In this document: piece after piece, positions 4,094 through 9,622 of the stretch
How positions within the stretch are numbered: the stretch's first letter is position 1
Layout of the letters: every line of letters starts with the position of its first letter
Assembly (NCBI RefSeq): GCF_019890615.1
Contig: NZ_JAINVZ010000006.1
Location: 186,001 to 250,000 of the forward strand
DNA length: 64,000 nt
DNA from: Streptantibioticus parmotrematis
Lineage (GTDB): Bacteria > Actinomycetota > Actinomycetes > Streptomycetales > Streptomycetaceae
Direction of reading: 5' to 3'
The notes under the pieces: model-generated
Told to the model about the DNA's origin: nothing
Seen by the model: only the letters and a program-made list of their open reading frames with translations
The model's database searches: none
Position numbers and translations under genes: made by a program

Positions 4094-4453
4094 GCCTCGG
4101 ATGCGGAGTGTTACTTCTGCGCCGCTGCGCGGCTTGAGGGGGCGGAGGCGGGGGGCCATCGGTGCTGCGCACCTGCCTTCGACACCCGGTCGCTTCGCGC
4201 CCGGGCCCGGCTTACGGGGTCCGAGGGCGAGGGTGGTTGGCGGATTAGTTGCTTCACCCTTGTCTCCGGCAACGAGTTGTCACCGCTAGGTACTTGTCGG
4301 AGACAACGGCGAGACAACTAATCCGCCAACCCATACTGCCCTGCGGGCGCGCAGCGACCGGGTATCGAAGGCAGGTGCGCAGCACCGTGGGCACCCCGCC
4401 TCCGCCCCCTCAAGCCGCGAAGCGGCGCAGAAGTAACACTCCGGCCTCAGGCC
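4094..4453. repeat. Large imperfect inverted repeat (REP/MITE-like element)
   Basis: The region between the P450 and the flavin monooxygenase is a near-palindrome. The outer left arm (about 4105-4202) and outer right arm (about 4345-4443) match as reverse complements at roughly 94 percent by eye. They start with GTGTTACTTCTGCGCC on the left and end with GGCGCAGAAGTAACAC on the right. An inner pair, GGTTGGCGGATTAGTTG (about 4233-4250) and CAACTAATCCGCCAACC (about 4316-4332), follows. The centre carries TTGTCTCCG and CGGAGACAA flanking GTTGTCACCGCTAGGTAC. About 29 bp on the left and 12 bp on the right, between outer and inner arms, do not match. The right end reaches the stop codon of the neighbouring gene. 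I find no transposase and no clear target duplication. Confidence 0.85.
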
Positions 4454-5559
4454 GCCGAGCCGACCCCGGGCTCCGCGAGCAACGCCGTGATCTCCCGAAC
4501 CGCCTCCCGCCCAGCCCGGTTCGCCCCGATCGTGCTGGCAGAACCCCCATAGCCGATCAGATGGATCCGCGGATCCTTCGCCACCCGCGTGCCCTCCATC
4601 CGCACACCCCCGCCCGGCTCGCGCAGCCGCAGCGGCGCGAGGTGGTCGAGTGCGGCGCGGAAGCCGGTGGCCCACAGGATCACGTCGGCCTCGACCCGCC
4701 GTCCGTCGTCCCACTCCACCCCCTCGGGCGTGACGCGGTCGAACATCGGCAACCGCTCCAGCACCCCGGACGCCCGTGCCGCTTCGATCTGCGGGGTGAG
4801 CGGCAGGCCGGTCGCGCTGACCACGCTGGCCGGCGGCAGCCCCCGTGCCACCCGCTCCTCCACCCGCGCTACGGCGGACCGCCCGCGGTCGGCGTCGAAG
4901 GGGCCGGGCACGAAGACCGGCGGCCTGCGGGTGACCCAGGTGGTCGAGGCCGCGACACCGGCCAGTTCCATCAGGTGCTGGGTGCCGGACGCGCCGCCGC
5001 CCACGACGACGACCCGCCGTCCCGCGAACTCCTGGGGCCCGCGGTACCGCGCGGTGTGCAACTGCCGCCCGCGGAACGTCTCCTGGCCCGGGTAGTGCGG
5101 CCAGAAGGGACGGTCCCAGGTGCCCGTCGCGTTGATCAGGACCCGCGTGGACCAGGCCCCCGCGTCCGTCTCGACCAGGAGCCTGCCGCCGGGTGCGCCC
5201 GGTTCCGCCTCGCGTACCGCGCAGACGTCCACCGGCCGCCGCACCCGCAGGTCGAAGGCGTCCTCGTACGCCGCGAAGTACCGGGAGACCACCTCGGCGG
5301 CGGGGCGGGCGGCGTCGCCGTCCTCCAGTCGCATCCCCGGCAGGTCGTGGACGCGGTGCGCCTTGCCGTAGGTCAGCGTCGGCCAGCGGTACTGCCAGGC
5401 GCCGCCGGGGCCGGGGGAGTGGTCCAGGACGACGAAGCCGGAGCCGGGACGCAGCCCGGCACGCCGCAGGAAGTAGGCCGCCGACAGCCCGGCCTGCCCC
5501 GCTCCCGCGACCACCACGTCGACCTCGGCGGCCTCACTCGTCACAGCGAAGTAGTTCAC
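4447..5559 (-). CDS. Flavin-dependent monooxygenase, NAD(P)/FAD-binding (FMO/CzcO type)
   Basis: The 370-residue protein has an FAD-binding Rossmann motif near residue 15 (VVVAGAGQAGLS), a second NADP-type Rossmann motif near the middle (VVVVGGGASGTQHL), and a C-terminal ATGF motif (LWATGFRAALDHL). This is the layout of single-component class B flavin monooxygenases and related oxidoreductases; the substrate is unknown. The start is GTG 5559, and a second GTG lies 15 bp downstream. No convincing ribosome-binding site precedes either, and a TACAAT hexamer sits just upstream, so the transcript may be nearly leaderless. It lies 69 bp downstream of ssuD on the same strand, which makes a role in organosulfur oxidation conceivable but unproven. 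Confidence 0.88.
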   Translation of the reverse strand: MNYFAVTSEAAEVDVVVAGAGQAGLSAAYFLRRAGLRPGSGFVVLDHSPGPGGAWQYRWPTLTYGKAHRVHDLPGMRLEDGDAARPAAEVVSRYFAAYEDAFDLRVRRPVDVCAVREAEPGAPGGRLLVETDAGAWSTRVLINATGTWDRPFWPHYPGQETFRGRQLHTARYRGPQEFAGRRVVVVGGGASGTQHLMELAGVAASTTWVTRRPPVFVPGPFDADRGRSAVARVEERVARGLPPASVVSATGLPLTPQIEAARASGVLERLPMFDRVTPEGVEWDDGRRVEADVILWATGFRAALDHLAPLRLREPGGGVRMEGTRVAKDPRIHLIGYGGSASTIGANRAGREAVREITALLAEPGVGSAA

Positions 5560-5628: not shown

Positions 5629-6798
5629 TCAGCGCCCGCTCGCCACCAGCAGCGGTGCCGGGACCCGCGGTGCCGCGTCGGCGGCGGGGCCGGTCAGCCC
5701 GCGGGAGGCCAGCTCGGGCGTGACGCCCTCGCCGAACCAGTACGCCTCCTCCAGGTGCGGGTAGCCGGACAGGACGAAGTGGTCGACGCCCAGCGCGTGG
5801 TACTCCTCGATCCGGTCGGCGACCTCCGTGTGGCTGCCCACCAGCGCCGTCCCCGCACCGCCGCGCACCAGACCCACTCCCGCCCACAGGTTCGGCGCGA
5901 TCTCCAGCTGGTCGCGGGAACCGCCGTGCAGCGCCAGCATCCGCTGCTGGCCCACCGACTCGCTGCGGCCGAGCGCCTGCTGCGCGGCGGCCACCGTGGC
6001 GTCGTCGAGGTCGTCGAGCAGCCGGTCCGCCGCGGCCCAGGCGTCGCGGGCGGAGTCCCGGGAGATGACGTGCAGCCGGATGCCGAAGCGCACATCGCGC
6101 CCTTCGCGTTCGGCCAGCTCCCGGATCCAGGTGATCTTGCGCCGGACCTGCTCGGGCGGCTCGCCCCAGGTCAGGTAGACGTCCGCGTTGCGGGCGGCGA
6201 CCGGTCCCGCGGCCGCCGAGGATCCGCCGAAGAAGATCTCGGGAAGCGGGTCGGGCGGCAGCGCGGTCAGCCCGCCGTCCACCTGGTAGTGCTCGCCGTG
6301 GAAGTCGAACGGCCCGCCCTGCCACACTCCCCGGACGATCCGCAGGAACTCGTCGGTGCGGGCGTAGCGCTGGTCGTGGTCGAGGTGGTCGCCGAAGCGC
6401 CGCTGCTCCACGGAGTCGCCGCCGGTCACCACGTTGAGCAACAGCCGCCCGCGGGTGAGGCGTTGATAGGTGGACGCCATCTGCGCGGCGAGCACCGGTG
6501 AGATCACGCCCGGCCGGAACGCGACCAGGAACTTCAGGCGTTCGGTGTGCTGGGAGAGGGCCACCGTCGTCAGCCAGGCGTCCTCGCACCAGGTGCCGGT
6601 GGGCGTCAGCACCGCCTCGAAGCCGAGTCGTTCCGCCGCCTTGGCGATCTGGGCGAGGTACTCGACGTCCGGGGCGCGCACCCCGGCGGGCAGGGCGGGC
6701 CGGGGGCGGCCGGTGCCGTTGTCGGTGTAGGCGTGCCGGTCCACCAGGGTGCGGCCGTCGCCGCCGGTGGGCAGGAACCAGTGCAGGTGTACGGACAT
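5629..6798 (-). CDS. ssuD: FMNH2-dependent alkanesulfonate monooxygenase SsuD
   Basis: The protein has 389 residues and belongs to the bacterial luciferase-like monooxygenases. It should cleave C1-C14 alkanesulfonates to aldehyde and sulfite using FMNH2 from a partner reductase. Recognisable SsuD features are the N-terminal HWFLPTGGDGR, the central LLLNVVTGGDS and the C-terminal FVLSGYPHLEEAYWFGEGV. The start is ATG 6798, because the open frame continues far upstream only as an overlap with ssuA. It is the last ssu gene of the operon, 44 bp after ssuA. No ssuE reductase is in the cluster; the flavin reductase at 33.8 kb is a possible but unproven partner. Confidence 0.95.
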   Translation of the reverse strand: MSVHLHWFLPTGGDGRTLVDRHAYTDNGTGRPRPALPAGVRAPDVEYLAQIAKAAERLGFEAVLTPTGTWCEDAWLTTVALSQHTERLKFLVAFRPGVISPVLAAQMASTYQRLTRGRLLLNVVTGGDSVEQRRFGDHLDHDQRYARTDEFLRIVRGVWQGGPFDFHGEHYQVDGGLTALPPDPLPEIFFGGSSAAAGPVAARNADVYLTWGEPPEQVRRKITWIRELAEREGRDVRFGIRLHVISRDSARDAWAAADRLLDDLDDATVAAAQQALGRSESVGQQRMLALHGGSRDQLEIAPNLWAGVGLVRGGAGTALVGSHTEVADRIEEYHALGVDHFVLSGYPHLEEAYWFGEGVTPELASRGLTGPAADAAPRVPAPLLVASGR

Positions 6799-6842
6799 GT
6801 GCGCAGGTCTCGATTCGGTCGTCCGGGGCGGGGGCTCGGCGG

Positions 6843-7880
6843 TCAGGATCCGGAGGCGGCGCGCGGCGGCGTGGTGGACGGCGGAAGGCCGGTGTTGTAC
6901 CGGGTGTCCACGAACTTGGAGAAGTCCACGGTGCCCGGGATCAGCTTCAACTGGCTGAAGGTGTCGGCGATGCGCTGCTCGGAGGCGACGGCGGCCTGGT
7001 CCACGGCGACCGTCACCGTGGTGCCCTGGGAGCGGCGCACCGCGTCGAGGGCGACCGGGTAGGACAGGCCGGTGTCCTCGGCCCATGCCTTCGCCCACTG
7101 CTCGGGGTGCTCGTCCGCCCACGACTGCGCCTTGCGCAGTCGCTGGAGGTAGTCGGCGATCGCTGCGGCCTTCGCCTTGTCGGCCAGTGCGGAGGGCGAA
7201 GCCACTTCGAAGCTGAGCCCGTTGGCGATGCCCTGTCCGGTCGCCAGGACGCGGGCGTGCTCGTCGGCGACGACCTGGGAGGTGTACGGGTCCCAGATCG
7301 CCCAGGCGTCCACCTTGTGCTGGGTGAACGCGGCAAGTGCGTCGGCGGGTTGCAGGTAGTCGAACGTCACGTCGGACGGGGACAGGCCCGCCGAACGCAG
7401 CGCGGCCACCAGCGTGTAGTTCGACGAGCTGCCCTGCGCGACGGCGACCGACTTGCCCTTCAGGTCCTTCAGCGACTTCAGCGGCGAGCCCTGCGGCACC
7501 ACGATCGCGTCGCCCGCGGAGGAGGTGTGGGAGGCGGCCACCACGGAGATCTTCGAGTGCGACGCCGCCGCGAACACCGGCGGGGTGTTGCCGACGCCGC
7601 CGAGGTCCACCGCCTTGGCGTTGACCGCCTCCAGCAGCGGTGGCCCGGAGGTGAAGGTGGACCACTTGATCTTGTAGTGCAGGTCTTTCAGTTCGCCGGC
7701 CGCGTCCAGTACGGCCTGCGAACCGCCCTTCTGGTCACCGACGTCGAGCGTGACGCTGCCGGATCCGTCGGTGCGACCGCCGGAGCCGGTCAGGGAATTG
7801 TCGGCCGCGGAGTTCCCGCCGCACGCGGCGGCCAGCACGGCGAGGGGGAGGAGCAGGGCGCCAACGACACGGGATTTCAT
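6843..7880 (-). CDS. ssuA: Aliphatic sulfonate ABC transporter substrate-binding lipoprotein SsuA
   Basis: The 345-residue protein is the extracellular sulfonate-binding component. It begins MKSRVVGALLLPLAVLAAAC, a lipoprotein signal peptide whose lipobox cysteine is followed by a short Ser/Gly-rich linker. The body matches the SsuA/NMT1 periplasmic-binding fold, with VDLGGVGNTPPVFAAA near residue 110 and QHKVDAWAIWDPY near residue 190. It lies between ssuB and ssuD in the same operon, with 93 bp and 44 bp gaps. The wider gap before it could hold an mRNA processing or regulatory site, but I see no clear hairpin there. Confidence 0.95.
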   Translation of the reverse strand: MKSRVVGALLLPLAVLAAACGGNSAADNSLTGSGGRTDGSGSVTLDVGDQKGGSQAVLDAAGELKDLHYKIKWSTFTSGPPLLEAVNAKAVDLGGVGNTPPVFAAASHSKISVVAASHTSSAGDAIVVPQGSPLKSLKDLKGKSVAVAQGSSSNYTLVAALRSAGLSPSDVTFDYLQPADALAAFTQHKVDAWAIWDPYTSQVVADEHARVLATGQGIANGLSFEVASPSALADKAKAAAIADYLQRLRKAQSWADEHPEQWAKAWAEDTGLSYPVALDAVRRSQGTTVTVAVDQAAVASEQRIADTFSQLKLIPGTVDFSKFVDTRYNTGLPPSTTPPRAASGS

Positions 7881-7973
7881 GGGGAGTTCCGTCTCTCTAC
7901 GGGTACGGGTGAGTGCGGTGCGTGAGGGGTGTCGCGCGGGTGTGGGGGCGTGAGCGGCACGCGGGAGGTGAGG

Positions 7974-8768
7974 TCAGGCGGCGCGGTCGTCCGTGGCCGG
8001 CGTCGCGGTCTTCACGTCCAGCCGGTCGAGCAGTGCGGTACGCAGCCAGGTGAACTCCGGGTCCGCCACGTCACGCGGACGCGGCAGGTCCACCGGTGCC
8101 TGGTGGGCGATGACACCATCGCGCATCACCAGCACCCGGTCGGCGAGCAGCAGCGCCTCCTCCACGTCGTGGGTGACCAGCAGCACCGCGCAGCCGCGCC
8201 GCCGCCAGACCTCGGCGACCTGCCGTTGCGCGTTGAGCCGGGTGAGCGCGTCGAGGGCGCCGAACGGTTCGTCGAGCAGCAGCAGATCGGGCTCGCGGAC
8301 CAACGCCCTGGCCAGCGAGGCGCGTTGGGCCTCGCCGCCGGAGAGCGTCTTGGGCCAGGCGTCGGCGCGGTGCTCCAGGGAGACCTCCGCCAGGGCGGCC
8401 ACCGCCGCGTCACGGTCGGGGCGGCCGGGCAGGCCGAGCAGCACGTTGCGCCACACCCGCTTCCACGGCATCAGCCTCGGCGCCTGGAACGCCACCGCGC
8501 GGCGGCGCGGCACCAGGACGGTGCCGTCGATCTCCCGGTCCAGTCCGGCCAGCACCCGCAGCAGGGTGCTCTTGCCGCAGCCGCTGCGGCCGAGCAACGC
8601 GACGAACTCGCCCGGCGCGATCTCCAGGCGCAGCTCGTCCAGCACCGGTCGGTCGCCGAAGCGCCGCGTCAGCCCCTCGACCCGGACGACCGCACCCGGA
8701 TCGGCCGACTCCACCGGCTCGGCGCGTTGGTGACGAGATGTCACTTTCCCGTGAATGTCGGTCGCCAT
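7974..8768 (-). CDS. ssuB: Sulfonate ABC transporter ATP-binding protein SsuB
   Basis: This 264-residue ATPase drives sulfonate import. It shows Walker A GRSGCGKST, the signature LSGGEAQR, Walker B LLLLDEPFGALD and the switch histidine in VTHDVEEAL. The Q-loop region reads AFQAPRLMPWKRVWRNV, as in SsuB/TauB. ATG 8768 overlaps ssuC by 28 bp and has an AAAGG about 11 nt upstream. An alternative GTG at 8744 would overlap the ssuC stop as GTGA and give 256 residues. Either start implies translational coupling with ssuC. Confidence 0.93.
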   Translation of the reverse strand: MATDIHGKVTSRHQRAEPVESADPGAVVRVEGLTRRFGDRPVLDELRLEIAPGEFVALLGRSGCGKSTLLRVLAGLDREIDGTVLVPRRRAVAFQAPRLMPWKRVWRNVLLGLPGRPDRDAAVAALAEVSLEHRADAWPKTLSGGEAQRASLARALVREPDLLLLDEPFGALDALTRLNAQRQVAEVWRRRGCAVLLVTHDVEEALLLADRVLVMRDGVIAHQAPVDLPRPRDVADPEFTWLRTALLDRLDVKTATPATDDRAA

Positions 8769-9622
8769 TGCAGCAGCAGCCTTTCGAGGAGACGGACGAT
8801 CAGGTCGGCGAGCAGGCCGAGGAAGGCGTAGACGACCAGGCAGACCACGATGACGTCGGTGCGGAAGAACTCCCGCGCCTGGTCCATCAGGAAGCCGATG
8901 CCGTTGTCGGCGTTGACGGTCTCGCCGAAGACCAGCGCCAGCCAGGCGGTGGCGAGGGCGTACCGCAGTCCGGTCATCGCGCCCGGCAGTGCCCCGGGCA
9001 GCAGGACATGGCGGATCAGGCCCCAGCGGGACAGTCCCAACGAGGTGCCCGCCTCGATCAACTGCTCGTCCACACCGCGTATCCCGGCGTAGACGTTGAG
9101 GTAGAGGTGGAAGGCGACACCGAGCGCGATCAGGGTGATCTTGGGCGTCTCGCCGATGCCCAGCCAGATGATGAACAGCGGGATCATCCCGACGAACGGC
9201 ACCGCCCGCAGCATCTGCACGGTGGCGTCGATCAGGTCCTCACCCAGCCGGGACAGCCCCGACAGCAGCCCGAGCGCGGTCCCGATCACCGTGCCGAAGA
9301 CCAGGCCGACGGCGACGCGGCGCAGCGACACCGCCATGGCGGAGGGCAGCGTGCCGTCCGAGGTCAGGTCCCAGGCGGTCCGGGCGATGGTGGCGGGCGA
9401 CGCGAGGATGTCGGACCCCAGGACGCCGGTGGCGCTGAGGACCCCCCACAGCACGAGCAGCAGCAACGGACCGGTGATGCGCCGCAGCCAGCGGGGGACG
9501 GAACGCCGCCTGGTGGCGACGGAGACCACGGGTTCCAGATCGATCGCCCCGCGGTCGGGCGATATAGGGGATATGTCGGAGGGTTCGGAGTGTGGCGTGG
9601 GCAGCGCTGTGCCGGCGCTCAT
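8741..9622 (-). CDS. ssuC: Sulfonate ABC transporter permease SsuC
   Basis: This 293-residue inner-membrane permease has about six hydrophobic segments and the binding-protein-dependent transport loop EAGTSLGLSRWGLIRHVLLP that contacts the ATPase. ATG 9622 is preferred over an upstream in-frame start at 9646 because AGGAG lies 7 nt before it. It is the first structural gene of the ssu operon, and a 27-codon leader peptide gene lies 105 bp upstream on the same strand. Confidence 0.94.
   Translation of the reverse strand: MSAGTALPTPHSEPSDISPISPDRGAIDLEPVVSVATRRRSVPRWLRRITGPLLLLVLWGVLSATGVLGSDILASPATIARTAWDLTSDGTLPSAMAVSLRRVAVGLVFGTVIGTALGLLSGLSRLGEDLIDATVQMLRAVPFVGMIPLFIIWLGIGETPKITLIALGVAFHLYLNVYAGIRGVDEQLIEAGTSLGLSRWGLIRHVLLPGALPGAMTGLRYALATAWLALVFGETVNADNGIGFLMDQAREFFRTDVIVVCLVVYAFLGLLADLIVRLLERLLLQWRPTFTGK

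Follow-up and report, generated by a model that had tools for sequence, protein, structure and literature searches.

A modular, interspersed palindromic repeat with a candidate protein-binding core in Streptantibioticus parmotrematis and a few Streptomyces relatives

Results

Between two minus-strand genes of the window, the whole 64,000-nucleotide stretch of Streptantibioticus parmotrematis DNA analysed here, lies a long near-perfect palindrome. A cytochrome P450 gene (PF00067, 2723-4024) flanks it downstream in transcription, and a flavin-dependent monooxygenase-like gene (PF13738, PF00743; 4447-5559) upstream. Left of the P450 gene, 402-2665 holds lactate-utilisation-like genes (LUD domain, CCG domain), and the right side (5629-9529) a luciferase-like monooxygenase with transporter-like genes downstream; in this wider neighbourhood Pfam was used for 402-1889, 1886-2665 and 5629-6798, and the remaining genes were judged by eye. 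The element was first reported as 4094-4453, and its symmetric part spans 4104-4443. The outer arms (4104-4203 and 4344-4443) are 100 nt long, 94% complementary and 140 nt apart, close to the ~98 bp and ~94% of the preliminary description. Nested inside them, the inner arms (4235-4272 and 4294-4331; 38 nt, 87% complementary) include both the 17-bp perfect stretch GGTTGGCGGATTAGTTG and the TTGTCTCCG/CGGAGACAA core stretch singled out earlier. The gaps between outer and inner arms had been given as 29 and 12 nt; the 12 was reproduced, and the 29 measures 31 in the present alignment. The right edge does touch a stop codon, the right outer arm ending 3 nt before that of the monooxygenase-like gene. 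An inverted-repeat scan of the window (at least 30 nt, within 1 kb) yielded four pairs, and the two outside the element are only 76% and 72% complementary.

None of the four open reading frames that extend into the element matches Pfam at 1e-3, in keeping with the earlier view that they are shadows of the symmetry; a coding element is thereby ruled out, as is a protein family spanning the palindrome. A known RNA family is ruled out as well, with 0 Rfam matches at gathering score among 4227 families in the 64-kb window. RNA folding of 4094-4453, a check proposed at the outset, gave -310.2 kcal/mol on the plus strand and -310.0 on the minus strand (z -20.2 and -26.7), and 0 of 100 shuffles on either strand folded as well. 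Such a fold, the 3-nt distance of the window copy from a stop codon and the placement at gene 3' ends described below all speak for a purely RNA-level device, either a very strong two-way intrinsic terminator or a 3'-end stabiliser, kept by RNA pairing. The stable stem has no obvious T run beside the arms, and many actinobacterial intrinsic terminators lack a U run. We nevertheless regard this explanation as unlikely: the element is much longer than such a device needs, lone arms are not unusually stable, and its core carries further features, given below, that count against it.

Compared with its own genome (G000), the element produced 77 overlapping rows on both strands (E up to 10), which resolve into nine strong loci: C56:190094 (the window copy), C21:8146, C12:24465, C12:258795, C17:23177, C15:40164, C10:59618, C10:20511 and C6:24965-25823. 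With up to 3 mismatches allowed, this genome has 27 copies of the end motif GGAGTGTTACGTCTGCGCCGC, every one inside a family locus, against 0 for a reversed control. Arm and core occur together at nine loci, which rules out a single local palindrome, and at eight in the congener G001, the only other genome of the genus examined; cores stand alone at eight and nine places, respectively, with one solo arm end in addition in G001. A covariance-model search added one further core (G000:C12:435243), which lies outside the placement counts below. A single-copy match confined to one species, named beforehand as a refuting result, is thus not what was found: the element is multi-copy and present in more than one species. 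Streptomyces genomes at large, the range first envisaged, proved too wide: the arm model matched 7 of 150 Streptomycetaceae genomes, namely the two congeners plus G054, G117, G132, G153 and G170, and these five carriers (among 148 other family genomes) all belong to one other genus. DNA matches at 1e-10 were found in 3 of 100 relatives, and in a collection of 84,980 species, from which records of the genome itself may be left out, Streptomyces sp. ICBB 8177 was the only named species with an exact motif-pattern match. Blastn of the window element against 72,556 plasmid and 50,697 phage records gave no match, two second-genus elements and one G017 element had none among the plasmid records, one second-genus element had none among the phage records, and two consensus patterns had no exact match in viral contigs; the absence of plasmid or phage matches rules out such an origin for the elements tested. 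The family is a scattered non-coding repeat of a few Streptomyces relatives, with an unusual modular build. The initial proposal of a MITE, REP-like element or terminator RNA stands in so far as this is a dispersed multi-copy non-coding repeat; membership in those specific classes is not established.

Profile searches over the fetched loci split the family into an arm of 97 nt and a core of 87 nt. In the window the arm profile matches 4104-4201 on the plus strand and, inverted, 4443-4346 on the minus strand. Each arm consists of three small hairpins. On the left these lie at 4121-4133 (GCCGC-TGC-GCGGC), 4161-4173 (GGTGC-TGC-GCACC) and 4187-4203 (loop TTC); their right-hand counterparts, read on the plus strand, lie at 4414-4426 (GCCGC-GAA-GCGGC), 4374-4386 (GGTGC-GCA-GCACC) and 4344-4360 (loop GCA). 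The arm alignment has 32 rows (33 arms minus two weak L114 arms, plus one arm from another genus), and 93 of its 96 loops read TGC or TTC. Arm stems covary modestly: both sides have changed in 19 cells, where shuffles give 7.2; the number of pairs with such changes (3) is not above shuffles. Additional arms occur at several loci (for example L110, L114, L133 and L135), nested or lined up in tandem beyond the element. Outside L132-L134 there are repeats of a 31-nt terminal unit. The 97-nt arm has the end motif GCGGAGTG..., and neither a GTAG nor a CGTC tag is conserved at its end. No Y1 transposase (IS200/IS605-type, PF01797; RAYT) was found in the 12 genomes searched, G000 and G001 among them, while the control was positive in 5 of 14 named genomes; without transposase or tag, the family does not qualify as REP/RAYT. 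Loops that stay constant while stems change (the second genus described below has TGC in 56 of 59 perfect 5-bp triloop stems) might point to a single-stranded DNA hairpin element, like Streptomyces telomere palindromes or HUH-transposase substrates, with recognition of sheared G-A-closed GCA/GAA loops, the complements of TGC/TTC; passages of PMC4513846 describe G-A-sheared GCA loops in the published telomere palindromes II and III. This strikes us as highly improbable, since loop uniformity is explicable by the relatedness of the copies, the Y1 family is absent, and a single arm as a DNA hairpin is no stabler than shuffled DNA (z -0.80 to 0.73), which rules out extra stability of lone arms in that form.

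The core palindrome (4235-4331 in the window) can also stand armless at other loci. Its six TTG/CAA half-sites (4249-4317) begin at 4249 (TTG), 4260 (TTG), 4270 (CAA) and, after a 21-nt spacer, 4294 (TTG), 4304 (CAA) and 4315 (CAA). Across an alignment of 29 cores (35 minus six partial ones), the order TTG-8-TTG-7-CAA-spacer-TTG-7-CAA-8-CAA is strict in 26, bearing in mind that the search pattern itself contains the half-site TTG, and the other three keep the half-site pattern within 2 substitutions per half. The central spacer measures 21 nt in 16 cores, 31 in three, 32 in eight, 42 in one and 43 in one; the classes 21, 31-32 and 42-43 nt are thus separated by steps of 10-11 nt, about one helical turn. 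DnaA boxes (consensus TTGTCCACA) were considered and dropped as not convincing, 22 of 26 cores having at least 3 mismatches, three having 2 and one having 1. Two solo cores, at L047:2891-2976 and 5396-5482 (G000:C4), lie 2.5 kb apart, each between convergent genes.

The same core reappears with other ends in a third genus. Among 14 genomes the core model matched only G000, G001 and one of the 12 others, G017, where it has eight places; the figures that follow rest on the seven that were read (L226, L229, L232, L235, L244, L250 and L253, about 1472-1625 in each). Half-site spacing is the same in all seven, with a spacer of 21 nt in six and 20 nt in one, and the inner letters CGTTGACTGGT...ACCAGTCAACG are constant. 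These copies have no arm module and are bounded instead by another outer inverted repeat around GGCGTGTCGG, forming a separate palindrome family of ~155 bp with constant CGTTGACTGGT half-sites and GGCGTGTCGG ends. Two of the seven (L229, L235) begin just before open reading frames that look transposase-like. Because half-site spacing is equal in two genera and spacers change in steps of 10-11 nt, we read the core, from its sequence, as a putative protein array on DNA. The spacer classes may also stem from only two ancient insertions, in which case the fit to the helical turn could have arisen by chance, at odds that we put at roughly 1 in 12.

Covariation bears on the level at which the core is constrained. 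The 29 aligned cores comprise 35 dyad pairs with 83.3% of cells paired, and both partners of the pair have changed in 87 cells; shuffles give 59.7 ± 7.0 such cells, and slid versions no more than 27. Of the five covariation measures, two fail to exceed shuffles (154/500 and 261/500); the first of these is the number of pairs with both-side changes (18). In a small test on codirectional cores, mismatches read along transcription were G-U in 33 and A-C in 30 cases (p 0.80). Pairs that covary without a bias of G-U over A-C suggest constraint on DNA rather than RNA. For an RNA-level device this is a point against, as RNA selection should favour G-U, and so is a spacer quantised at 21, 32 and 43 nt.

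In the second genus the same arms flank, in facing orientation, another conserved centre, GTGGATCACTAAGGACGG(T/C)CAGAACTC and neighbouring letters, which 14 of 19 loci contain when up to 6 substitutions are allowed. This centre was found in 5 of 200 genomes, the same five that carry the arms. A non-coding centre GTGGATCACTAAGGACGGYCAGAACTC... is conserved in the second-genus elements of L192-L210 (G054, G117, G132, G153, G170; e.g. L198:2941-3060); by eye it appears unrelated to the TTGTC core, and the core HMM gave no match to it below 0.01. Arm matches at 1e-5 occur in 4 of 35 genomes of this genus, 44 of them in G153, where head-to-tail tandem arms occupy one side of the centre and inverted arms the other. 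Tandem periods there are 137 in L204 (1953-3133), 176 in L202 (2485-3330) and about 150 in L206 (2390-3164), and second-genus elements with tandem arms reach ~1.2 kb.

Placement between genes is skewed. The 35 places in the first genus comprise 10 convergent, 21 codirectional and 4 divergent intervals; the baseline of 110 gene pairs without an element (at least 60 nt apart, from the same first-genus loci, called with a simple gene caller of our own) has 9, 61 and 40. Convergent intervals are commoner (p 0.004) and divergent ones rarer (p 0.006) than in this baseline, and merging orthologs to 25 places leaves p 0.004 and 0.018. Nineteen second-genus places (one of 20 was dropped for want of a left gene) are convergent in 10 cases, codirectional in nine and divergent in none, compared with the baseline from first-genus loci. 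Convergent pairs are thus favoured and divergent ones avoided in two of three lineages. The seven G017 copies divide into none convergent, three codirectional and four divergent, so 3'-end placement is not general; copies away from 3' ends also sit poorly with an RNA-level device.

Ten sites are common to G000 and G001, one of them (L134/L118) with only end pieces in G001; the solo end in L118 could be a remnant or else a minimal element. At the window site both flanking genes are retained in G001 (92-93% identity), and the two matches lie ~107 nt apart. BLAST spacing had suggested a precise empty site there, an idea dropped when the interval was found to hold TGCGGAGTG and an 18-nt arm piece (E 2e-4); this orthologous copy (L142:2860-2962, G001:C17) consists of the end-motif piece and the arm piece only. 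Within the limits of so short a match, the remaining pieces point to a decayed copy and not to an absent one. The empty sites that the preliminary description proposed to look for did not appear in clean form at the sites compared between the congeners (two relevant sites), which hold remnants instead, and no target-site duplication was found at the sites compared. GCCTC stands at both edges of the window element, but paralogs elsewhere also have the left copy, so this repeat belongs to the element and is no target duplication.

Relationships among copies are mixed. Near-identical cores stand at different sites (L132/L133/L134 at 96-97%, L114/L115 at 99%), the L133 core being 97% identical to L132 and L134 and 86% to its ortholog; the right arms of L128 and L129 share 97% identity with each other and 85% with their orthologs. 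Concerted evolution as a general rule finds mixed support in seven pairs of orthologous cores: in four (L130/L112, L139/L120, L140/L123, L047b/L124) each core is most similar to its ortholog, in one (L129/L110) paralogs are nearer in either genome, and in two (L128/L111, L133/L116) they are nearer in one genome only. Arm identity averages 81% within an element (18 pairs) and 76% between elements (447 pairs), a small difference. In some cases paralogs resemble each other more than they do their orthologs, so gene conversion on a local scale, or recent copying, probably acted on some copies.

These histories bear on whether the family is an ordinary MITE, a non-autonomous element whose ends are moved in trans by a DDE or other transposase and whose palindromy is a by-product of long terminal repeats. 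The repeat is indeed short, non-coding and multi-copy with terminal inverted repeats, its end motifs all fall within family loci, near-identical copies occupy different sites, and two G017 copies adjoin the presumed transposase-like frames. Set against this are the lack of a gene between paired arms at 20 of 20 second-genus places, an arm spacing in the window copy too short for a transposase gene, congener sites that hold the element or its remnants and no clean empty site, edge GCCTC repeats of the window copy that are no target duplication, and long hairpin arms that are nested or in tandem, which is un-MITE-like. An autonomous copy may still lie elsewhere or have been lost. On balance we think a MITE rather unlikely.

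Discussion

The reading we favour, at a probability of about one half, is a non-coding, chromosomal, interspersed palindromic repeat of BIME/RIP-like kind, with a candidate protein-binding core and mostly at gene 3' ends. The core would be a dyad of six TTG(T/C)C half-sites in helical register, docked by a multimeric protein, and the arms would be arrays of small hairpins closing the element on both sides, as wrappers. At gene 3' ends the long symmetric hairpin might stop transcription from either side, and the repeat perhaps doubles as a two-way terminator; arms and core together would form a two-way boundary between transcription units. Copies would be inherited at fixed sites and decay by internal deletion, and some may be homogenised or re-copied within one genome. 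A bolder reading, which we hold tentatively and consider doubtful, is that of a new modular element class in Streptomycetaceae, in which hairpin arms and protein-docking cores are interchangeable, the six half-sites keep strict helical register, the two halves of a core move apart only by whole turns, and the arms can re-wrap an unrelated core in another genus. Such an element would work at the DNA level, as a nucleoprotein structure that insulates or organises neighbouring transcription units.

Should the core prove to be an array of protein in helical register, it would offer a directly testable target (which protein docks there, and what role it has between genes) in bacteria for which little is known about the nucleoprotein functions of intergenic repeats. 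Long palindromes tend to be unstable, and near-perfect ones of ~340 bp that persist at shared sites in two species provide a natural case.

Among the top-ranked papers of a literature search, none described an interspersed palindrome family of such build for Streptomyces. By build, the arms recall Streptomyces telomere palindromes, which passages of PMC4513846 portray as series of small GC-rich hairpins with GCA-type triloops, whereas the present element is internal, intergenic, symmetric and cored, and lacks the terminal-protein context. REPs, as characterised in parts of PMC3733652, measure 20-40 bp, bear a GTAG (or CGTC) tag and have an associated IS200/IS605-type transposase; the REP/RAYT system (REPtron) shares with our family extragenic palindromes paired head-to-head, and differs from its 97-nt arm without conserved tag or such a transposase. 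Correia/NEMIS, RUP, ERIC and YPAL are likewise small non-coding repeats with inverted ends, stable folds and sometimes an internal protein site, and sections of PMC2229807 present NEMIS as a small mobile sequence with an internal IHF site. The Streptantibioticus family departs from these in its length (340 nt to ~1.2 kb), its GC richness without TA ends, the lack of target duplication at compared sites, and arms and cores that recombine as separate modules. BIME/RIP elements number hundreds per genome, against about 10-20 places per genome here. Further differences from that group are the ~97-nt three-hairpin arms, the ~90-nt core of six half-sites, the different sequence and the absence of RAYT. 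BIME/RIP is nonetheless the nearest known kind, followed by bacterial MITEs such as NEMIS, and interspersed palindromes at gene 3' ends are found in two of our three lineages, G017 being the exception. In enterobacteria, passages of PMC2267715 describe BIME/RIP (RIB) elements as REP palindromes with gyrase and IHF sites at the 3' ends of transcription units, and our family resembles them in having extragenic palindromes scattered at 3' ends, with a part that binds protein, here putatively, lying between or beside inverted modules.
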